A stretch of DNA of 64,000 nt. Source: Acinetobacter nosocomialis (lineage in GTDB: Bacteria > Pseudomonadota > Gammaproteobacteria > Pseudomonadales > Moraxellaceae). The stretch is from positions 930,001 to 994,000 of the forward strand of contig CP107049.1 in the NCBI GenBank assembly GCA_025736915.1, in the 5' to 3' direction. The translations under genes and the position numbers were made by a program. Positions 9,078 through 51,310 of this stretch are shown piece by piece. Numbering within the stretch: position 1 is the stretch's first letter; every line of letters starts with the position of its first letter. The notes under the pieces were generated by a model. That model was not told the origin of the DNA. It saw only the letters and a program-made list of their open reading frames with translations, and did not search any database.

Positions 9078-10472
9078 TTAATGATGTTGAGTTAATTCAA
9101 TTTCATCTTCGCTATTCATTATAGCTTTGTCGGTCTGCCCCATAAATTGGCTTGTAACTACACCAGCAGTCATCGAACCATTTACGTTTAACGCAGTACG
9201 TCCCATATCAATGAGTGGTTCAATTGAAATAAGAAGAGCAACCAATGTTACAGGTAAGCCCATAGCAGGAAGTACGATCAATGCTGCGAAAGTTGCACCA
9301 CCACCAACACCTGCTACGCCAATTGAACTTAAAGTCACAATACCCACTAACGAAGCAATCCACATTGGGTCTAGGGTGTTAATACCCATAGTTGGCGCAA
9401 CCATGACTGCGAGCATGGCTGGATATAAACCCGCACAACCATTTTGTCCAATAGTGGCACCAAAAGAAGCAGAGAAACTTGCAATAGACTCAGGCACACC
9501 CAAACGACGAGTTTGCGCTTCAATGCTCAGTGGAATACTTGCAGCACTTGAACGACTCGTAAACGCGAATGTTAGAACCGGAGCAACTTTCTTGAAGAAC
9601 TTAAGTGGAGAAACACCGGTCAGAGTCAAAATAATGGCATGCACGACGAACATAATCGCCAAACCTAAATAAGACGCCACCAAGAAACCACCTAGGTTCA
9701 AGATATCTGCGACATTTGAACTTGCCACAACTTTCGTCATAAGGGCAAAAACACCATATGGTGTAAGCGTCATCACTAAACGAACAAGCTTCATTACCCA
9801 AGACTGTAATGTTTGAATAGCCGTCAGAATACGTTGACCTTTTTCTGCGTCATCTTTCATTAGGTTGAGTGCTGCTATCCCTAAAAAGACAGCAAAGATA
9901 ACCACGCTAATAATTGAAGTCGGATTTGCACCCGTTAACTCAGCAAAAGGGTTACTCGGAATAAAAGAAAGAATAAATTGCGATACACTTAAGTCTGTTA
10001 CTTTACCCACATAGTCAGTCTGAATTGCAGTAAGTCGAGCTGTTTCAGCCGCCCCTTGTACCAAACCTTTGGCAGTTAAACCAAACAAGTTCGTCACAAA
10101 TACCCCAACCAGCGCAGCGATGAGTGTGGTAAATAACAAAGTCCCGATGGTGTAGAAGCTGATTTTTCCTAAAGAAGAAGCTTGGTGTAGCTTCGCTACC
10201 GCACCTAAAATCGAAACAAAGACCAAAGGCATCACGACCATTTGTAAAAGTTTTACATAGCCATTACCAACAATATTAAACCAGCTAATAGATTCAGCAA
10301 GAATCGGATGGCCACCGCCATAAATCAAATGTAGTCCTAAACCAAACACTACACCTAAAATTAAGCCAGCTAGAACTTTTTTAGATAAGCTCCAGTCCGT
10401 TTTACGTGTTTGGGCGAGTAAAAATATTAACCCGACAAAAACCACAATATTGATGATTAAGGGTATATTCAT
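9078..10472 (-). CDS. tcyP: L-cystine/cysteine symporter TcyP
   Basis: A sodium:dicarboxylate-fold (DAACS) inner-membrane carrier of 464 residues that matches E. coli TcyP (YdjN) nearly end to end from memory: [20 protein letters not shown] at the start, [34 protein letters not shown] (the serine-rich re-entrant loop), [20 protein letters not shown] and the tail [15 protein letters not shown] chose the ATG at 10472 because GGAG lies 7 bases upstream and the E. coli protein starts at the same place. The frame stays open ten codons further (ATG at 10502), but no ribosome site precedes that ATG. It imports L-cystine as a sulfur source. It is monocistronic with its own terminator. Confidence 0.95.
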
Positions 10473-26136: not shown

Positions 26137-26877
26137 ATGCAACAAAAAAACCCAGGTAGAACACTCGTCTTATGGATTATCGCAGCTCACCTATTTATGG
26201 GAATGGTTGCATATGAGTGGTTGCCTGTGAGTTTTAGAGGAAGCTGGATTTTTATTCTTCTTCTTTTAATTTCTGGTGCTTTTTTAGAAGTTGGCTTGTC
26301 TTTAATTGTCGGTTTACTCGCATTTATTGGAGTTGCCGTATATTTTCTACTCGACTTAGGGGCTCAAACGCACATTGAACGGCAACTTCTTTTACTTTTT
26401 ATTATTCCTCTTATTCCGCTCTTTTTAAGTGCTGTACGCCATAATATTGAAATTAATGTTCAAAAATATCGAGATATTCAAAGCTATGACCGAAATTATC
26501 GCCGTGATATTTTCCCGATCAGTGCTTTGAAATACTTCCAACGCAGCTTTTTTAAACTACTTGATCGCCATAATGTACAAGACTATGAAGTCTTTGCGAT
26601 CAAGATTCTTAATCGTAGTTTAATCAAAGAAATGCTCGGTGATGATGTTTGGAAAACCACTCAAAATGAAATGATTAAGATTTTGAGCCAACATGAACCT
26701 AATGAGATTATTTTCCAGTTTGCTGATGATGACTTGGAAAATATATACAGTATTGTCATTCGCCAGCAAAAAACAGAAGAAGAACCAGACTTTATTAAAA
26801 AGTTAAGAGAAATTATGACATTACGCCTTGAGGTGGAATATAAAATTATTCCAATTCCACCTGAGGAGATGAGCTAA
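26137..26877 (+). CDS. Membrane protein with GGDEF-like remnant, first gene of exopolysaccharide operon
   Basis: A 246-residue protein with four membrane helices (about 9-27, 36-53, 55-72, 83-100) and a cytosolic domain (about 125-240). The cytosolic part reads like a worn GGDEF domain: VFAIKILNRSLIKEMLGDDVW lies where active cyclases have the D-I/L-D-xFK-xIND region, and IIFQFADDDLENIYSIVI where R-x-GGDEF is expected. Neither the catalytic GGDEF nor an RxxD I-site is present. This layout resembles PelD and the receptor subunits of other synthase-dependent polysaccharide systems, which sense cyclic di-GMP. Binding here is inference. No clear ribosome site precedes the ATG; the next gene starts in a TAATG overlap. 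Confidence 0.7.
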   Translation: MQQKNPGRTLVLWIIAAHLFMGMVAYEWLPVSFRGSWIFILLLLISGAFLEVGLSLIVGLLAFIGVAVYFLLDLGAQTHIERQLLLLFIIPLIPLFLSAVRHNIEINVQKYRDIQSYDRNYRRDIFPISALKYFQRSFFKLLDRHNVQDYEVFAIKILNRSLIKEMLGDDVWKTTQNEMIKILSQHEPNEIIFQFADDDLENIYSIVIRQQKTEEEPDFIKKLREIMTLRLEVEYKIIPIPPEEMS

Positions 26878-27773
26878 TGTCTAATCTTCTTAATATTTGT
26901 GGAATTGTGATTGCTTCTAGCCAATATCCAGACGCTACTCTACAGCAGTTCTATCGGCAATATTATCATTGTGAAATTAAAGCTGAACAAACAAAAGCCG
27001 AAATACAAAGTTCTAATGATCTTTCCATGTTTTTTCCTTATCAAGATACATGGTGGCCAGTCTTTACCATTGATCAGATTAGTTCAGAAAGCTTTCAAAA
27101 GTTTGTTCATAATGGAATTCGACCCGGCATTATCTTGCCAGATGAAGTCTTTGGTTTCCCCCACTATTTTTTATTAAAAGAAGCAGTAAGCCAAGGCGCT
27201 ATTCCGATCGTACTTTTTAAAACTGAACAGCCTCAATATTTTGCTGCTAAGGCAACATTTTCAACAGCTATTGGTTTACGGCCAATGGCTGCGTTTGTGA
27301 GTACAGGGTGGGATGAAAATTTAATTTCACAACCAGCGGGTAGTTATATTATCCAGTTAAATTCGGCAAACTTACCCATACCCTCAAGAGAGGTTAAACA
27401 AGGTAAACATTTATTTTATTCGGCCAAAGGTTTTAACGGTCATGTTTCAGGTTATGAAATTATTATCAATCCTCCTGCCGATTTACCCCTCTCTAATATT
27501 CGCTATCCGCAACTCGGTATTTCGTGGAAATTTAATAATATTGATTATTTAAGCACCCCTGAACATGTCAGTACCAATCTTATTGGTTATATATTTATTG
27601 GTTTAAGTATAGTTGTTGTCCCTCTTGATCTGATTTTAACAACAACCTATCCAGATCTACTCGGTACATTTGGTAGTTACATTTCATGGATCTCCTTAGT
27701 AGTGGGATTAATTCTATTATTACTACTCATCTCTTCTATTATTAGGAGGGTCCGTAAAAATGGCTCCAATTGA
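26877..27773 (+). CDS. Unrecognised protein of exopolysaccharide operon (298 aa, C-terminal membrane anchor)
   Basis: I do not recognise a family. Residues 1-225 are soluble, with strand/helix alternation, including GIVIASSQYPDATLQQFY at the start and PDEVFGFPHYFLLKEAVSQGAIPIVLF in the middle. Two hydrophobic helices follow (about 237-257 and 265-285), then a basic end IIRRVRKNG. The start codon shares an A with the stop of the previous gene (TAATG), with GAGGAG 9 bases upstream, and its end overlaps the glycosyltransferase start by 14 bases. So it is made in step with the synthase. The anchor near the C-terminus suggests the main domain faces the cytosol, but the side is not proven. Confidence 0.7.
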   Translation: MSNLLNICGIVIASSQYPDATLQQFYRQYYHCEIKAEQTKAEIQSSNDLSMFFPYQDTWWPVFTIDQISSESFQKFVHNGIRPGIILPDEVFGFPHYFLLKEAVSQGAIPIVLFKTEQPQYFAAKATFSTAIGLRPMAAFVSTGWDENLISQPAGSYIIQLNSANLPIPSREVKQGKHLFYSAKGFNGHVSGYEIIINPPADLPLSNIRYPQLGISWKFNNIDYLSTPEHVSTNLIGYIFIGLSIVVVPLDLILTTTYPDLLGTFGSYISWISLVVGLILLLLLISSIIRRVRKNGSN

Positions 27774-29010
27774 TATTCTGTTTTTATTTGGCTTTCTAGG
27801 TATTTGGATTCCACAGGCATTTTGGGCTTGGTTAAGCTATCAAGCGTGGAAGTATTCCAAAACTGCTGAAAAAGAACTGCAAAACTTACCAATACCAGAG
27901 AGATGGCCTGTATTAAGTGTTTTAATTCCCGCCTATAACGAAGGCGTGGTAATTGAAGATACTTTACATGCCATTGCCCAACAGGACTATCCAACAGAGT
28001 CTTATGAAGTACTGCTTATTAATGATGGCTCAAAAGACAACACCCTTGAAATTGCAGAAAACCTCGCAAAAATTTATCCGTGCATAAAGATCGTTAATGT
28101 CCCCAAAGGTATGGGTGGTAAAGGTAAATCAAGAACACTCAATAACGGCCTTCCTCATGCTAAAGGTGAGTTAATCGTTGTTTACGATGCCGATAGTACT
28201 CCTGAACCTGATTGCGTTCGTTTACTTGCACAGACCTTACTAGCAGATAAAAAGTTAGTCGCAGTAAATGGCAAAGTAAGAACCCGTAACTGGCAAGATA
28301 GTATTTTGACTCGTTTTATTGCGATTGAGTTCATCTTTTTTCAGTGGATTTTTCAAGGCGGACGCTGGCAACGCTTTGAACTATCAACATTAATGGGGAC
28401 TAACTACGTTATCTGGCGCGATGCATTAGAAACTTTAGGTGGTTTTGATGAAAAGTCGCTAGTCGATGATACAGAAATGAGTTTCCGAATTTTTATCGGA
28501 CAAAAACGAATTAAATGGGTTCCCTATGCAATTGGGTGGCAGCAGGACCCGCCTTCCTTAAGTGTATTTGTTAAACAGCGCTCACGTTGGACACAAGGTA
28601 ATTTTTATGTGACACGTAAATATTTACCTGTAGCACTCAGAACACCATTTCCCATCGGAATTGAAATTCTGAATAACATTATGTGCTACATCCTTTTCGT
28701 ACCAGCTCTGTTTTGGAGTCATATCACCTTAACACTTGGCTTACTTGATATTGCAGGTATTTCAGTTCCAGGACCATTTACGCTCCTGTGGGGTCTTTCA
28801 TTTTGCCTATATGTGGCACAAATGTGGTTTACGCTATCTTTAGAAAAAGTTAAACCAGAACTCTATTTTTACTCTGTTTTATCTTATGTAAGCTACTCGC
28901 AAATCTTCTTATTTATTGTATTTAAAGCCGCATTCGACATGCTAAAAAATAAAATACAGGGTAATTCCCTTCAATGGTACAAAACAGAACGCAGCAAGGA
29001 GAAAAAATAA
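27760..29010 (+). CDS. Processive family 2 glycosyltransferase (polysaccharide synthase)
   Basis: A 416-residue inner-membrane GT2 synthase of the cellulose/PgaC/NfrB class. One helix at about 5-25 is followed by the GT-A domain and three or four C-terminal helices (about 300-395). The residues of inverting processive enzymes are present: PAYNEG, Asp89 in INDGSKDN, DAD at 143-145, Asp236-237 in LVDDTEMSF and Q273-x-x-R276-W277 (QRSRWTQGN). It has no C-terminal PilZ domain, so any cyclic di-GMP control would have to come from a partner. It is translationally overlapped with the genes on both sides (14-base overlap upstream, adjacent downstream). A UDP-activated sugar donor is expected. Confidence 0.9.
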   Translation: MAPIDILFLFGFLGIWIPQAFWAWLSYQAWKYSKTAEKELQNLPIPERWPVLSVLIPAYNEGVVIEDTLHAIAQQDYPTESYEVLLINDGSKDNTLEIAENLAKIYPCIKIVNVPKGMGGKGKSRTLNNGLPHAKGELIVVYDADSTPEPDCVRLLAQTLLADKKLVAVNGKVRTRNWQDSILTRFIAIEFIFFQWIFQGGRWQRFELSTLMGTNYVIWRDALETLGGFDEKSLVDDTEMSFRIFIGQKRIKWVPYAIGWQQDPPSLSVFVKQRSRWTQGNFYVTRKYLPVALRTPFPIGIEILNNIMCYILFVPALFWSHITLTLGLLDIAGISVPGPFTLLWGLSFCLYVAQMWFTLSLEKVKPELYFYSVLSYVSYSQIFLFIVFKAAFDMLKNKIQGNSLQWYKTERSKEKK

Positions 29011-30855
29011 ATGAAAAAGACTTTCGATCTTTACCAAACAGCTCAAGTGCTCCTTGCCAGCACCAGTTTTTTACTCGCCATGTCTGCTCATGCATATACA
29101 TGGAAACTGGATGATATTAGTACCTCGACTAAATATACTGTCGAGCCTCATTTTTTCTATGTGGGAAAAGGTGCTGAATGGCAAAATATCCAGTTTTCTA
29201 CTGACTATTCCACTGAAAACGACACAACATTACTGGTGAAGTATGACGATAAACTCATCTATAACACGACCTTAAATGGTGATGGCCAATTTAAATTTAA
29301 TATTCCTGCCAGCCCAAGTGGTTTTCACCGTTTAGATTTTATTATTCAACAATATGCTAAACCTACAACTCTAAACCAGACAAAAGAAACCTTCTGTACC
29401 GAAGATATCGATCATTTAACTTATTTGAGTAATTCCCAACTCGACTTTACGCCTATTCGTAATGTTTATCGTTTAAAAGATTTACCAGATGCTCTATTTA
29501 ATCCACAAACTAGACGTCCTACGCCATTTGTTGGAATTTTAAAATATAACCGTAAGGAAATTACCGAAGCATCCATGCTAGCTCGGTTAGCAAGCTCTTG
29601 GAGTTCTGTAACTCCTATTGAATGGGTCGACTCAGGACAAACTAATTTAAATGCTGAAACAAACTTTATTATTGAAGTGATTCATTCAGCCAATCCCCTT
29701 AAAGGCGGTGCTTTAGTACAAATTGCGAAACCGGCAGAAGGTGTTCCGACACTATCAATAACTTACCACACACCACAAGAGCTCACTTCTGCTATTAATG
29801 GGCTGATTAACCCAGCCTATGTACAACAGCTTGATACTGATAGTGCAATTTTCCCAACCACAATTTCAGCACCTGCTTGGGCACAATTTAGAAAAATTGA
29901 CACGCTTGCAGATTTGGGTATTAGCGACTTCAGACTCAACCATGCTGAAAAGAATCTCTTTCTTGATTTCCCAGCAGTCTGGCAACCAACTGATATCCTC
30001 CAGGGACAAATCGCACTTCGTATTCAAAGTGGCTTATTACAAGGCTCGAGTATCACTGCATGGCTGGATGGCGGCCTCGCTGGTAGTATGAAAACGGCGG
30101 ATCTTGCTTCTGACCCCGTGAACCGACAGTTCAACATCTTTGCCAAGGAAATTTCAAATACAACAAACTTTAGCTTAAAACTTGAAAACTCGGTCATTGC
30201 CAACTCACAGTGTTTACCAAATGCTCACGGTTCACTTTGGGTTGATACCGCCAAGTCAACAGTAAAACTTCCGCATAAACTCAAAAATGGTGTGGCAGCG
30301 CTTTCAATGACGTTAGCAACTAAGCCAACGATTGCAATTGATGACCAATCAGGGGCACTAAATATGGCTATTATTTTAGGGCAAGTTGCTAAAAATATGT
30401 TGCTTACACAAGCACCTATGCCATTAAACTTAGTACGGTTTTCACCAAACGCTCCACAAGCAGTTAATGTGAGAGTCAATAAAGAGATTTATCAGCAACA
30501 AGTATCAATGCATCAAAACATTATTTATGCACCAGCAGCAACAAATGGTTTTATTGTGAGTTATAACAATAACCGCTTTGATGTGATTACTGACTCTGAA
30601 AATGGTGCACAAACATTCATGCATTTATGGGGAACGATTCAACATAAAATTCCAAACAATGTCACCAAAATGCTGGTTTCTGAAAATGGCAATATTTATG
30701 TTCTCCAGAAATTAATTGTAGGTAACCAAAAAGCACCACTAGTTCAGCAATCATCATTCTTTTTACTAGTTGTGATTATCTCTGCAATTATGATAATAGT
30801 GATCTTCTTGTGGTATTGGTTACGACGAAATAATGAGAAAACAGATACCAATTAA
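29011..30855 (+). CDS. BcsB-like periplasmic polysaccharide synthase subunit
   Basis: A 614-residue protein with a signal peptide (about 1-28, ending AMSAHA), a long beta-rich periplasmic part and one C-terminal membrane helix (about 582-605, FFLLVVIISAIMIIVIFLWYW) followed by RR. The order, and stretches such as DTTLLVKYDDKLIYNTTLNGDG and AINGLINPAYVQQL, match the BcsB family, the partner that guides cellulose out of the synthase; it is shorter than the approximately 780-residue BcsB. The ATG directly follows the synthase stop, with AAGGAGAAAA before it. The final 23 bases overlap the next gene. Polymer identity cannot be read from this protein. Confidence 0.85.
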   Translation: MKKTFDLYQTAQVLLASTSFLLAMSAHAYTWKLDDISTSTKYTVEPHFFYVGKGAEWQNIQFSTDYSTENDTTLLVKYDDKLIYNTTLNGDGQFKFNIPASPSGFHRLDFIIQQYAKPTTLNQTKETFCTEDIDHLTYLSNSQLDFTPIRNVYRLKDLPDALFNPQTRRPTPFVGILKYNRKEITEASMLARLASSWSSVTPIEWVDSGQTNLNAETNFIIEVIHSANPLKGGALVQIAKPAEGVPTLSITYHTPQELTSAINGLINPAYVQQLDTDSAIFPTTISAPAWAQFRKIDTLADLGISDFRLNHAEKNLFLDFPAVWQPTDILQGQIALRIQSGLLQGSSITAWLDGGLAGSMKTADLASDPVNRQFNIFAKEISNTTNFSLKLENSVIANSQCLPNAHGSLWVDTAKSTVKLPHKLKNGVAALSMTLATKPTIAIDDQSGALNMAIILGQVAKNMLLTQAPMPLNLVRFSPNAPQAVNVRVNKEIYQQQVSMHQNIIYAPAATNGFIVSYNNNRFDVITDSENGAQTFMHLWGTIQHKIPNNVTKMLVSENGNIYVLQKLIVGNQKAPLVQQSSFFLLVVIISAIMIIVIFLWYWLRRNNEKTDTN

Positions 30856-31738
30856 AATAACTGCTTTTATTATTTTAATTATATGTAGTGTAGTGGCGTA
30901 TGCGGGGTTGTTCAAAAATCATGGACAACCTCCAATTATTGAAGGTATTTTCTGGCAACCCGATAATAATACCACTCCTCCTAAAGGAAACTGGCATTAC
31001 TTAGGAGTGAACACTTTTGTTCCCCAATGGTCAGTCGTCGAATCTAAATCTTGGTGGAAAAACTCTAATCTTCCTCAATGGGAAAATGCCATTGATATAC
31101 AAAAAATTAAACAACAACCTTGGGCCAAAAATCTCATCTTGGGTTTAGCAGGTGAATATAACGAACGTGAAGCACGTGCAAATGTCGTTGCTTTAGGAGA
31201 AAAATCTGCGCAAATTATTCAAGAACAAAAAGATGCACCATTAAAAGGTTATTATTTTCCAGTAGAAGCCGATCCAACATGGCTAAGAGTCAGTACATTA
31301 GGACATGTTTTAGAAAAATTGCCCTCACCTATCTGGGTTAGTATTTACAGTGGTGAAAGCGAACCTGAAAACTATGATTTGTGGGTTAAAAGTTGGTTGC
31401 CTCAACAAGCGGGTATCTTTTTTCAAGACGGCGTAGGTGTGGGAGTAAGGACTCCCCAACAAGCTCGACGTATTTTAGATCAACTTGAGCAAACTCTTGG
31501 AAAAGATAAAACGGTGATTGTGCTCGAAGCCTTTCGAACCAAGAAAAATGGACAATTTCGAGCAGCATACCCTTGGGAAATTATTTCTCAGATTAAAGCT
31601 TATGAAGGCAAGAAAATTTATATTTTTGATGGTCCACATTACATGGGACGTTGGTCGGTTTACATCGTCGGTTTGTGGTATCGTCTCGCTTATGGCGGCA
31701 CATCTACCGCCATAAACGAATCGGAAATTTCAAAATAA
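30833..31738 (+). CDS. DUF4434-like, glycosidase-fold protein of exopolysaccharide operon
   Basis: A 301-residue protein with an N-terminal signal anchor (about 5-25) and a periplasmic domain resembling the DUF4434/TIM-barrel glycosidase group: GIFWQPDNN, YYFPVEADPTWLR with a candidate acidic residue, SIYSGESEP and GIFFQDGVGVGVRTPQQA. Proteins of this type accompany synthase-dependent polysaccharide operons and may cut or length-control the polymer. The start lies 23 bases inside the BcsB-like gene. The gene ends 7 bases from the convergent epimerase gene with no hairpin between them. The family call is from memory of the motif and is moderate. Confidence 0.7.
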   Translation: MRKQIPIKITAFIILIICSVVAYAGLFKNHGQPPIIEGIFWQPDNNTTPPKGNWHYLGVNTFVPQWSVVESKSWWKNSNLPQWENAIDIQKIKQQPWAKNLILGLAGEYNEREARANVVALGEKSAQIIQEQKDAPLKGYYFPVEADPTWLRVSTLGHVLEKLPSPIWVSIYSGESEPENYDLWVKSWLPQQAGIFFQDGVGVGVRTPQQARRILDQLEQTLGKDKTVIVLEAFRTKKNGQFRAAYPWEIISQIKAYEGKKIYIFDGPHYMGRWSVYIVGLWYRLAYGGTSTAINESEISK

Positions 31739-31745
31739 ATGACTT

Positions 31746-32882
31746 CTATTCATAAGTTTTAGCAATTTCATTTAATATTCGCTGAGCAGCACGCCCATCA
31801 CCAAACGGATTTTCAACATTTGCCATTTTTTGATAATGCTGTGAATCCGTTAAAAGTTTCTCAGCCTCTTCAATAATTTTCTGCTGATTTGTTCCAACCA
31901 ATACCCCTGCTCCCACCTCTACTACTTCCGGACGTTCAGTCGTGTCTCTTAAAATTAAGACAGGCTTATTAAATGATGGGCTTTCTTCTTGTAAACCACC
32001 AGAGTCCGTTAAAATAAAACTGGAACGATCTATAACGGCCAATAAACTTGGGTAATCGAGTGGCTTAACCAAATGAATTTGAGCATGATTTTTAAACTTA
32101 TCATGTACTACATCATGTACAGCCGGGTTTAAATGCACAGGCCAAATAAAATGTAAATCAGGATGATGATTAGTTAAATGCTCAACTGCATTACAAATAT
32201 TTTGAATTCCCTCACCGAAATTCTCACGGCGGTGAGCAGTTATAAGTACAACTTTATCGTTTTGTTTTAATTCAATTCCGTAAGGCTCAAGTTGATTTTT
32301 CAAACCCGTCTTTTCAGCTATGAGTTTCCTTCCTAAATATACAGCATCGACTACCGTATTCCCTGTCACTGTAATCAACGAAGGTGGAATCTGCTCATTT
32401 AACAAGTTACGCTTTGATTGTTCTGTAGGGGCAAAATGCCATTTGGTAATACGAGAAACTAACTGGCGGTTACCTTCTTCAGGAAACGGATGATCTAAAT
32501 CATAAGAACGTAAACCTGCTTCGACATGGGCAACAGGTATCTTCATTGAAAATGCGACTAACCCAGCAGCTAACACAGTCGTAGTATCACCCTGAATGAC
32601 AATCGCATCTCTTTTTTGTCCATCGGTGTAGACATGTTCAAGTTGTGTCAAACCATGAATTAACAGCTGATTTAGGCTTTGTCCTGCATTCATAATTTTG
32701 AGTCGGTGGTCAATTTCGACCCCAAAGAAATCTATGGCATCTCGCACTAATTCATCATGCTGCCCCGTGAAAATAACTTCTACCTGAAATCGTGAGTCTT
32801 GTTTTGCCAATAGAATTACTGGAGCCAACTTTATAAGCTCTGGACGGGTACCAAAAACAATCGAAATAAAAATTTTTTTCAT
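31746..32882 (-). CDS. wecB: UDP-N-acetylglucosamine 2-epimerase (non-hydrolysing)
   Basis: A 378-residue epimerase that interconverts UDP-GlcNAc and UDP-ManNAc. Seen: IVFGTRPELIKLAPVILLA at the N-terminus, IVQGDTTTVLAAGL, HVEAGLRSYDLDHPFPEEGNRQLV, ITAHRRENFGEG and LTDSGGLQEESPSF, all marks of WecB/MnaA with the UDP and allosteric UDP-GlcNAc sites. It is the second gene of a two-gene operon with the outer-membrane protein gene, 2 bases apart. Placed opposite the synthase operon, it is likely dedicated to supplying UDP-ManNAc for the polymer. No other enterobacterial common antigen gene is in the window. Confidence 0.93.
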   Translation of the reverse strand: MKKIFISIVFGTRPELIKLAPVILLAKQDSRFQVEVIFTGQHDELVRDAIDFFGVEIDHRLKIMNAGQSLNQLLIHGLTQLEHVYTDGQKRDAIVIQGDTTTVLAAGLVAFSMKIPVAHVEAGLRSYDLDHPFPEEGNRQLVSRITKWHFAPTEQSKRNLLNEQIPPSLITVTGNTVVDAVYLGRKLIAEKTGLKNQLEPYGIELKQNDKVVLITAHRRENFGEGIQNICNAVEHLTNHHPDLHFIWPVHLNPAVHDVVHDKFKNHAQIHLVKPLDYPSLLAVIDRSSFILTDSGGLQEESPSFNKPVLILRDTTERPEVVEVGAGVLVGTNQQKIIEEAEKLLTDSQHYQKMANVENPFGDGRAAQRILNEIAKTYE

Positions 32883-32884
32883 TA

Positions 32885-34111
32885 TTAGAAATCCTTATAA
32901 AAAACAAATTCTACTCGGGTATTGTTGTAATGATCTTTTGTATTAACAGGCACGTCTTTAAAATAGTTGCCATATAGACGTTCAACACGTAGTTTTATTG
33001 GTTGATAGTTAAAAGGCTGCCATGAAATCCCTGGGCCATATTCAAATAAATTATTGTAATATTCATTTTTACTGTCTGCTAAGCCATGCAATTTCACATA
33101 ACCCTGCACAGTTCCCTCGTCTCCTTTATATAAATTTAAACCTGTGCGTAAGCGTAAATCTCCAATAACGTTATAGTCTTCTCTTGAATAAGTCGCGACA
33201 TTACCATAGAGATCCGTAAAGTAATTATCTAAACAAAGTGTATGATTACATTTAGACTGCGAATACCATTCCTGATAACCCGTTACACCGCCTACAACAC
33301 TTTCACGAAATTTTTTTCTATTTCGATCAATCAAGTCATAACTTCCACCCACTTCGACATAAGCTCGAACAGGAATTGAAGTCCATGGTTGATAATTTGC
33401 ACCTACCCCAAGAGTAACCGCATTTTCATCAATAATTTCAGGTCGTACTCCACCTTGAGATTTAGTATCACGGTTTAAATTAAGAAAGCCATATACTTGA
33501 GCTCGTCCGTTATCGATGTTTTTACCGTACCGAACTTTTAAGGGAAAAATAACATCGTCATAACGTGACTCATAAGAGGGTGCAAAATAAATATCACCAA
33601 AATATGGTTTAACCTCACCCCCACTTAAATTTTTAACCGCTTGAGTTGCCTTTGCTGCAATTGCTGGATCTGAAGATGAAGTTAATTCTTTAAATAAAAC
33701 CAATGCATCACGATCTTTTTTCTGCTGATTCAGCAAATATGCTTCTTGTAATTTTAAATTGTCGTCTTGAGGAGCTAAAGCTCTTGCTTGTCTTAAACTT
33801 TGTAAAGCCTCATCTCTTTTTTCGAGCCGAATTTGTAAATAAGTAAGGCTTTTCCAGACTTTAATATCTGTAGGGGTCAACTTACTCAGCTCAACTAATA
33901 TTTTTTCTGCTTCTTGAGGTTGAGACTGCTCTATTTTATAAAATCTGTCCCACTTATCATAAATGAGGTTTCCAGGTTTATAGTCTGAAGCTACTTGGTC
34001 CTGTGCATAAACACAGCCCATGCTAACTAACGTTAAAGAAGAGATCACTGCTCCCATAAGTAATATTGAATGCGTTATAGAATTTATTGTTTTGCTATTT
34101 TTCATTTTCAC
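32885..34111 (-). CDS. TPR plus beta-barrel outer-membrane protein (NfrA/PgaA-like exporter)
   Basis: A 408-residue protein with signal peptide (about 1-37, ending GCVYAQ), three or so TPR units (about 50-160; AEKILVELSKLTPTDIKVWKSLTYLQIRLEKR, EALQSLRQARALAPQDDNLKL) and a C-terminal barrel (about 170-408) with alternating strands, ending in Phe as outer-membrane proteins do. The last part (GPGISWQPFNYQPIKLRVERLYGNYF) resembles the C-terminal domain of NfrA, the N4 phage receptor and glycan exporter of E. coli. A Cys occurs at residue 33 but the lipobox is poor. It is probably the secretion channel for the adjacent exopolysaccharide system; promoter likely within 34112-34355. Confidence 0.82.
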   Translation of the reverse strand: MKMKNSKTINSITHSILLMGAVISSLTLVSMGCVYAQDQVASDYKPGNLIYDKWDRFYKIEQSQPQEAEKILVELSKLTPTDIKVWKSLTYLQIRLEKRDEALQSLRQARALAPQDDNLKLQEAYLLNQQKKDRDALVLFKELTSSSDPAIAAKATQAVKNLSGGEVKPYFGDIYFAPSYESRYDDVIFPLKVRYGKNIDNGRAQVYGFLNLNRDTKSQGGVRPEIIDENAVTLGVGANYQPWTSIPVRAYVEVGGSYDLIDRNRKKFRESVVGGVTGYQEWYSQSKCNHTLCLDNYFTDLYGNVATYSREDYNVIGDLRLRTGLNLYKGDEGTVQGYVKLHGLADSKNEYYNNLFEYGPGISWQPFNYQPIKLRVERLYGNYFKDVPVNTKDHYNNTRVEFVFYKDF

Positions 34112-49873: not shown

Positions 49874-51310
49874 ATGGAAACTTTAGATTCTTCAATTTTT
49901 GACTTAATCCCAATTCCAATGTGGATTGAGGACTTCAGTGAAGTAAAGCAGTTATTTGACCTATGGAGAAATCAGGGGGTCGAAGACCTATATGAATTTC
50001 TAAGTCAAAATGAAAATTTGATTGTCGAATGTGCCCATAAAATTAAAATTATTAAGGTCAACCAAAAAGCATTAGAACTTTTTGAAGCAAAAAACCAAGA
50101 AGAATTATGCGCCAACTTAAATCTTATTTTTAAAAAAGAAATGTTTGAAGCTCATATTCATGAACTCAAAGCGTTATGGAATGGCAAAACTCATTTCTCG
50201 AGTACTACTATAAATTACACGCTCTCTGGTAAACGTATTGATGTACAACTGCGTGGAGCAATTTTACCGGGTTCTGAAACTACATTTGACCGTATTTTAA
50301 TTACCACCGAAGACATTACGCCTTATCAAAATGCACTTCGTCAGGAAGAGAAAAATCGACGCCTAGCAGAGTCAATGTTTATCTACTCCCCGACTTCGCT
50401 TTGGGTTGAAGATTTTAGCCGTATTAAAAATAGAATTGATCAGCTTAGGCTATTAGGTATTGAAGACTTTAGGACTTTTCTAGATGTACATCCTGAGTTT
50501 GTGCGTCAATGTATAGAAGATATTCTAATTTTAGATGTTAACCAGTCGACTCTCGATTTATTTAAAGCCCCTGACAAAACGACTCTCTTAAAAAATACCC
50601 ATAAAGTTTTTGCTGAAGAAATGGTGGAAACTTTTAGAGAGCAACTGATTGAACTGTGGCAAGGAAATATTCACCACAAGCGTGAAGCCATTAACTATGC
50701 TTTAGACGGACAAATTAGAAATGTCTTACTGCAATTTACCGTATTCCCCGGCTATGAAGAGACTTGGGGATTGGTACAAGTAGCACTTACAGATATTACT
50801 GCACGAAAGAAAGCTGAAAATTATTTAGAATATTTAGGCCAGCATGATGTGCTGACTAAGCTTTATAACCGTGCTTTCTTTACAGAAGAGCTTAATCGCT
50901 TAAATCGCAGCATTATTCGCCCTGTTTCTTCAATTTTTTTAGACATGAACGGTTTAAAAGAAACCAATGATCAACTTGGTCACGATATTGGCGATGGTTT
51001 ATTGCGGCGTGTAGGTAATATTTTAAATCAGGCAATCACAAATACTGCATATACAGCTTCTCGAATCGGTGGCGACGAGTTTGTGATTTTAATGCCTGGT
51101 GCTGATGAAGCGAATGTTTTAATGATGCTGCAAACTATTCAGGAGCTTTTCAATATAGATAATCAATATTACTCAAGCCATCCAATTAGTATTGCTATTG
51201 GACATGCAACCACAAAAGAAAATGAACAAGTGGAAGATATGCTAAAACGCGCAGATCACAGCATGTATCAAAAGAAAAAAAGTTATTATCAAGAAGTGCC
51301 ACAACAATAA
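49874..51310 (+). CDS. PAS-PAS-GGDEF protein (probable diguanylate cyclase)
   Basis: A 478-residue soluble regulator. Two tandem sensory units of about 150 residues (7-150 and 168-310) are visibly duplicated: each opens P-x-x-(M/L)W(I/V)EDFS and then has a (V/I)ED-x-x-x-FL segment, a VNQ-x-(A/T)L-(E/D)LF core and an ITAR/ITPY end like PAS domains. The GGDEF domain follows (about 320-475) with HDVLTKLYNRAFF, FLDMNGLKETND and an intact SRIGGDEF (399-403), so it can make cyclic di-GMP. No RxxD inhibition site lies five residues before GGDEF. No membrane helix or signal peptide. It ends in a strong terminator. Confidence 0.88.
   Translation: METLDSSIFDLIPIPMWIEDFSEVKQLFDLWRNQGVEDLYEFLSQNENLIVECAHKIKIIKVNQKALELFEAKNQEELCANLNLIFKKEMFEAHIHELKALWNGKTHFSSTTINYTLSGKRIDVQLRGAILPGSETTFDRILITTEDITPYQNALRQEEKNRRLAESMFIYSPTSLWVEDFSRIKNRIDQLRLLGIEDFRTFLDVHPEFVRQCIEDILILDVNQSTLDLFKAPDKTTLLKNTHKVFAEEMVETFREQLIELWQGNIHHKREAINYALDGQIRNVLLQFTVFPGYEETWGLVQVALTDITARKKAENYLEYLGQHDVLTKLYNRAFFTEELNRLNRSIIRPVSSIFLDMNGLKETNDQLGHDIGDGLLRRVGNILNQAITNTAYTASRIGGDEFVILMPGADEANVLMMLQTIQELFNIDNQYYSSHPISIAIGHATTKENEQVEDMLKRADHSMYQKKKSYYQEVPQQ

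Follow-up and report, generated by a model that had tools for sequence, protein, structure and literature searches.

The gene at positions 26137 to 26877 of the window (+ strand), the window being the whole 64,000-nucleotide stretch of Acinetobacter nosocomialis DNA that was analysed, corresponds, judged by the content of its locus, to pgrA of the "phage glycan receptor" (PGR) locus published in PMC12507263. We hold with moderate confidence that its product serves a Pss-type polysaccharide synthase as a subunit for structure or assembly and not as its c-di-GMP gate. PgrA consists of four membrane helices followed by a domain with the fold of GGDEF proteins (residues 118–246), in which both the I-site and the GGDEF motif are absent. 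We propose that it acts as an obligate inner-membrane subunit of the synthase, which would probably make a poly-N-acetylmannosamine-like polymer. Its helices would anchor the protein beside the glycosyltransferase PgrC, with which it may be in contact, and the GGDEF-fold domain would dock on the cytosolic face and aid assembly or activity as a scaffold or co-polymerase. The fold may descend from a PssE-like c-di-GMP receptor that has lost its I-site, so that c-di-GMP would most likely not gate synthesis through PgrA. McCalla 2025 (PMC12507263) described the pgrA product as a diguanylate-cyclase-like structure without GGDEF and left its role open.

The content of the locus follows the published description. 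The pgrA reading frame starts with ATG, encodes 246 amino acids and ends with the stop codon at 26877; its product is 97% identical to an A. nosocomialis homologue. Overlapping or abutting genes for proteins of 298, 416 (GT2), 614 and 301 amino acids lie 3′ of it on the + strand, followed on the opposite strand by wecB and a TPR-type gene. These are a second gene at 26877–27773 (+), which is pgrB by position (the main text of PMC12507263 does not name it); pgrC at 27760–29010 (+), encoding the GT2 polysaccharide synthase, 99.5% identical to A. baumannii records; pgrD at 29011–30855 (+), which according to PMC12507263 encodes a BcsB-like subunit and whose product did not match the Pfam BcsB family at E 1; pgrE at 30833–31738 (+), with a weak DUF4434 match below the family cut-off; pgrF at 31746–32882 (−), encoding a WecB-type UDP-GlcNAc 2-epimerase, an enzyme that makes UDP-ManNAc (TIGR00236, 436 bits against a cut-off of 210); and pgrG at 32885–34111 (−), with weak TPR matches and described as a putative outer-membrane exporter in PMC12507263. 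The seven genes have the predicted roles given in the text of that paper, those of pgrD, pgrE and pgrG being assigned through weak matches or from the paper itself. No Rfam riboswitch match reached the gathering threshold between 24000 and 36000 of the window, and scans for promoters and terminators did no better than on shuffled sequence.

The second gene product carries two C-terminal membrane helices after a part (about residues 51–214) for which the low-confidence model is deacetylase-like: the top eight VIA-align matches are deacetylases (Z 8.5–9.9). We do not call PgrB a deacetylase, because none of its histidines is invariant among nine sequences, the pLDDT of the model is 71, and Foldseek disagrees, giving no match at E ≤0.001 and placing different enzymes at the top, with many tryptophan synthases among them. 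With low confidence, the model suggests that PgrB is possibly a second pseudo-enzyme of the complex. Elsewhere in the genus, the 258-kb Acinetobacter plasmid pACI-df08, typed as mobilizable, has a seven-gene pgr-type arrangement by annotation (6356–14263 of L074), flanked by biotin-synthesis genes, and two A. variabilis plasmids carry the same synthase, 75.5% identical to PgrC.

The relationship of PgrA to GGDEF proteins is seen in its predicted structure. In an AlphaFold2 model built on 14 aligned sequences (mean pLDDT 78.8, pTM 0.59; 82–91 per 10-residue block over residues 151–240), residues 118–246 adopt the GGDEF tertiary fold: the domain aligns with the DosC GGDEF domain (4zvh_A) at a VIA-align Z of 10.6 and an rmsd of 2.9 over 121 residues, and all 50 VIA-align matches listed are GGDEF-domain or diguanylate-cyclase proteins by title, including DosP, which we take to carry a GGDEF domain. 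The best Foldseek match had an E of 1.8e-3 (prob 1.00), with none at or below 1e-3. The helices of the model (6–28, 31–49, 52–76 and 80–124) agree with the four hydrophobic segments above the cut of a segment scan (9–27, 35–53, 54–72 and 84–102). The ADDDL sequence of residues 196–200 (codons at 26722–26736, +) lies between strands 190–196 and 202–209, at the hairpin turn that holds GGDEF in active cyclases. The four membrane helices, the GGDEF-like layout and the placement of ADDDL, all of which an earlier sequence-only reading of this DNA had pointed out, are thus borne out by the model. Profile scans of PgrA returned no Pfam or NCBIfam family at E 1, its best sequence match in the PDB reached only E 0.55, and an hhalign comparison with the 10 GGDEF domains of its own genome was not significant (E 0.15, probability 0.4%), so the fold assignment rests on the model.

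The residues of the domain argue for a structural role. We extracted 55 pgrA homologues, the window's own included, and aligned 54 of them, 43 being distinct; a stub (L053) was left out, and one reading frame (L055) starts late as extracted, so that its first ~20 residues are missing. RxxD occurs at the I-site in 0 of the 43 distinct Acinetobacter sequences (alignment of residues 178–196), compared with 5 of 10 among the GGDEF domains that the A. nosocomialis genome encodes, read by eye, so that the classical I-site, which the earlier reading had found lacking in this one protein, is missing from every PgrA homologue seen. The GG(D/E)EF active-site motif of active diguanylate cyclases was not found in any of the 43. 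The turn takes 10 different sequences (INEEL in 17/43, ADDDL in 15/43 and eight others in the remaining 11/43), and L200 is the sole invariant position among the five of the turn (196–200); ADDDL is therefore not a conserved remnant of a catalytic motif. The domain has no invariant arginine in this set. The commonest arginine column within residues 118–246 is R119 (35/43), that within residues 150–239 is position 164 (R in 25/43, K in 15/43), and position 230 holds R in 16/43 and K in 27/43. Because the RxxD of the I-site and the GGDEF residues are both missing, a structural role in the synthase is more probable for PgrA than a sensory one. The headline of the sequence-only reading, that this protein is a cyclic di-GMP sensor, is disfavoured by the missing RxxD, the unconserved turn and the lack of an invariant arginine in the domain; where that reading had allowed either a receptor or a purely structural subunit, its structural half fits these sequences better.

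We regard it as rather unlikely that PgrA is nonetheless a c-di-GMP receptor that gates PGR synthesis through non-canonical residues or through a site shared with PgrC. Such an arrangement would have a model in the PNAG synthase of E. coli, where c-di-GMP binds PgaD together with PgaC and thereby activates the enzyme (PMC4125290); c-di-GMP can thus bind a synthase that lacks a classical I-site. It would also agree with the presence of GGDEF proteins in the genome, with the roles of PssE and PelD, which have the same kind of fold in synthase systems and are c-di-GMP receptors, and with PgrC itself, in which a Pfam scan found no MshEN match and, as the sequence-only reading had stated for the GT2, no PilZ match. 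K173 and Q176, each present in 42/43 homologues, are near-invariant and could belong to some c-di-GMP site. Apart from the missing RxxD and the lack of an invariant arginine, a receptor is disfavoured by the conservation of the domain, which in each of the five pairs computed is lower (by identity) than that of the membrane part.

The (near-)invariant residues of the domain include Y150, N159, L162, M166, L167, L183, F195 and L200; nearer the N-terminus, YEW 26–28 and GSW 35–37 are invariant as well. The conservation of Y150, N159, K173 and Q176 in an otherwise variable domain would also suit an altered domain that senses some other small ligand, be it a different nucleotide or a nucleotide-activated sugar like UDP-ManNAc, and the degenerate GGDEF domain of GdpP, which has weak ATPase activity (PMC10243994), offers a precedent. 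We consider this unlikely: there is no direct sign of any ligand for PgrA, and in the hhalign register of PgrA against GGDEF domains, which is not significant, the active-site acidic and Asn positions land on different residues in PgrA, several of which vary. That same register, with the GGDEF domains of the own genome, did not bear out the idea that the former nucleotide pocket is filled by M166 and L167, both invariant.

That the domain has been retained and is not debris is indicated by the substitution pattern. Between PgrA and the homologues in L002, L003 and L004, dN/dS for the domain is 0.041, 0.054 and 0.055, respectively (dS 0.74–1.42), for the membrane part 0.000–0.046, and for PgrC 0.005–0.008; by this measure the pgrA domain is under purifying selection in close relatives. 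In two distant pairs (L011 and L054) the domain is 42–44% identical and gives a dN/dS of 0.32–0.35 at saturated dS; PgrC is saturated against L011, so it has no dN/dS value there. The greater variation of the domain, which against L011 is 42% identical whereas the membrane part is 73% identical, is what one would expect if the domain were a dispensable relic. We find that very improbable in view of the dN/dS of about 0.05 in the three close pairs, and also because 54 of the 55 extracted homologues, the window's own among them, span the domain in an open frame. In addition, of 149 Acinetobacter genomes searched, pgrC turned up in 45 and a near-full-length pgrA in those same 45, so that pgrA is found wherever the synthase is found. 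The one exception among the extracted homologues comes from a further Acinetobacter genome (L053, 7717–7947, −): a stub of 53 residues corresponding to the beginning of pgrA, in a 16-kb stretch where no other pgr gene was found, and probably the scar of a deletion of the pgr locus.

The synthase to which we assign this subunit most resembles the Pss system of Listeria. Full-length PgrC and PssC of L. innocua are identical at 166 of 419 aligned columns (40%), and the best matches of PgrC outside Acinetobacter in a plasmid collection came from Listeria (39%, E 4e-79), Enterococcus faecalis (39%) and Priestia (35%), whereas its identity in shorter local alignments was 25–28% to PgaC, 23% to BcsA and 22% to NfrB. 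By these identities PgrC is closer to Listeria PssC than to NfrB or PgaC, which is new here. A small synthase tree of 12 rows, in which Pss-type proteins, PgrC, PgaC, BcsA and the Priestia protein arise from one fork where long branches meet, leaves the grouping of PgrC with PssC open. The likeness of PgrA to Listeria PssE, which the sequence-only reading had suspected, was recovered, with less certainty than that of PgrC to PssC, by profile–profile alignment to a four-row PssE-like set over 183 columns running from the membrane helices into the domain (E 4.5e-5, probability 68.8%), the probability being 26.9% when the PgrA profile was compared with L. innocua PssE alone. In the same kind of comparison, the PssE-like set matched the GGDEF domains of the A. 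nosocomialis genome at E 1e-8, an unrelated pair of profiles used as a control gave E 0.37, and PgrD matched PssD distantly (E 1.8e-4, probability 49%); no sequence match was found between PgrB and Listeria PssB (DUF2334; E 0.36). The identity between PgrC and PssC and the alignment of PgrA to PssE together make PGR resemble a diderm Listeria Pss system.

PssE and PgrA both consist of N-terminal membrane segments followed by a single degenerate GGDEF domain, with four hydrophobic segments in PgrA and three above the cut in L. innocua PssE (P0002), and in both the pss operon and the pgr locus a PssC-type GT2 and a BcsB-like subunit are encoded beside this protein. The two differ in that L. innocua PssE has RTSD at the I-site and scores above the Pfam GGDEF cut-off, whereas PgrA has neither RxxD nor a Pfam match, and in gene order, pssE being last in Listeria pssA–E and pgrA first in the pgr locus. 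PssE binds c-di-GMP with a Kd of 0.79 uM, and pssE mutants lose the polymer (Chen 2014, PMC4125290); Listeria Pss is reported to be induced by raising c-di-GMP. Among open-licence papers, we did not find the link between PGR and Pss in print, and the words "Listeria" and "Pss" are absent from the main text of PMC12507263.

A PssE-like protein without an I-site also occurs in E. faecalis. The hypothetical protein P0003, encoded at 9198–10058 of L072, is 28% identical to L. innocua PssE, has four hydrophobic segments like PgrA, has a PssC-like GT2 and a BcsB-family protein encoded nearby and, again like PgrA, lacks RxxD. The E. faecalis Pss-like operon as a whole (L072, 1551–10058), with its GT2, BcsB-family reading frame and PssE-like protein without an I-site, is mostly annotated as hypothetical; this stretch differs from the pgr locus in coming from a Gram-positive organism and in having no wecB annotated in its 13 kb. 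Neither the E. faecalis nor the Priestia protein encoded beside such a GT2 has RxxD at the aligned position, the Priestia protein having an Arg one position before it, and neither gave a Pfam GGDEF match at E 0.1. E. faecalis is not known to have diguanylate cyclases. We tentatively suggest, with less assurance than we attach to a structural role for PgrA, that PGR is a diderm Pss synthase of the poly-ManNAc type whose closest relatives found outside Acinetobacter are in Bacilli, that its receptor subunit has turned signal-blind, and that a like loss took place separately in Enterococcus.

Beyond the genus Acinetobacter, sampled genomes of its order, class and phylum gave few traces of the system. 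The PgrA profile matched only its own genome among 390 genomes of the order; among 369 of the class it matched its own genome and, weakly (E 0.0074), 47 residues within a frame of 908 amino acids. The PgrD profile matched only its own genome among 398 genomes of the phylum, and the same outcome was obtained for PgrC at E 1e-45 in samples of 248 class and 259 phylum genomes. Because these searches are samples, the link to Bacilli rests on the plasmid collection, through whose records alone Firmicutes were covered, and on pairwise comparisons.

Other synthase systems offer looser parallels. PelD of P. aeruginosa and B. cereus (PMC8461298, PMC7112168), to which the sequence-only reading had compared this protein, shares with PgrA four N-terminal membrane helices, a degenerate GGDEF domain and a place in a synthase system, whereas its GAF domain, its RxxD and its further Arg have no counterpart in PgrA. 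In the model, helix 80–124 leads directly into a single GGDEF-like domain; since this leaves no room for a GAF domain, PelD is a looser parallel than PssE. We do not count the absence of PelD entries among the 50 VIA-align matches listed against this likeness. A parallel for a synthase uncoupled from c-di-GMP may be seen in the streptococcal PelD, which lacks a GGDEF domain and occurs in species that are not known to use c-di-GMP (PMC7112168). In the NfrB/NGR system of E. coli, the receptor of phage N4, a phage likewise uses a ManNAc-based polysaccharide, as cited in PMC12507263; there MshEN sits on the NfrB synthase itself, unlike in PgrC, the two synthases are 22% identical over a part of their length (E 0.001), and the annotation of the E. 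coli stretch shown lists no PgrA-like gene on its nfrB side.

The nucleotide c-di-GMP is probably present, given the 10 GGDEF matches in the own genome, where one PilZ match was also found. One of the GGDEF domains (L064; 117 bits) is encoded in the window itself at 50840–51283 (+), ~24 kb from pgrA, with GGDEF intact and no I-site RxxD. An active c-di-GMP network with eleven GGDEF/EAL genes has been described in A. baumannii (PMC7005169); those genes came from a Pfam-based search, and PgrA has no Pfam match. Passages of a further paper on c-di-GMP in A. baumannii (PMC13243610) name pgaABCD and not the pgr genes. Phage StAb3 needs the PGR glycan in A. baumannii, and more than 75% of it adsorbs to the wild type in 10 minutes (PMC12507263); the sections of that paper covered here make no mention of c-di-GMP manipulation. 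Indirectly, adsorption under such conditions supports a loss of sensing, unlike the Listeria Pss system with its induction by c-di-GMP, although the basal c-di-GMP of A. baumannii could also suffice for it.

The resemblance of PGR to Listeria Pss predicts a poly-ManNAc-type polymer, as the Listeria polymer is cited in PMC5039582 as poly-β-(1,4)-ManNAc with α-1,6-galactose. Five pgr loci (L012, L013, L014, L015 and L052) have no pgrF in the stretch fetched, and in all four of these genomes that were searched (L012, L013, L014 and L052) another WecB-type epimerase, of 43–45% identity, was found elsewhere. The WecB-type PgrF and these other epimerases agree with a ManNAc polymer and do not prove it. 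The link to Listeria Pss thereby provides a concrete chemical prediction for PGR, a β-1,4-ManNAc backbone. If PgrA is indeed signal-blind, constitutive production of the polymer would be expected, and this would account for the ability of phages to rely on PGR as a broad receptor. Moreover, a GGDEF subunit that selection has maintained despite the loss of its known ligand site would separate the structural role of GGDEF domains from their sensing role in polysaccharide synthases.
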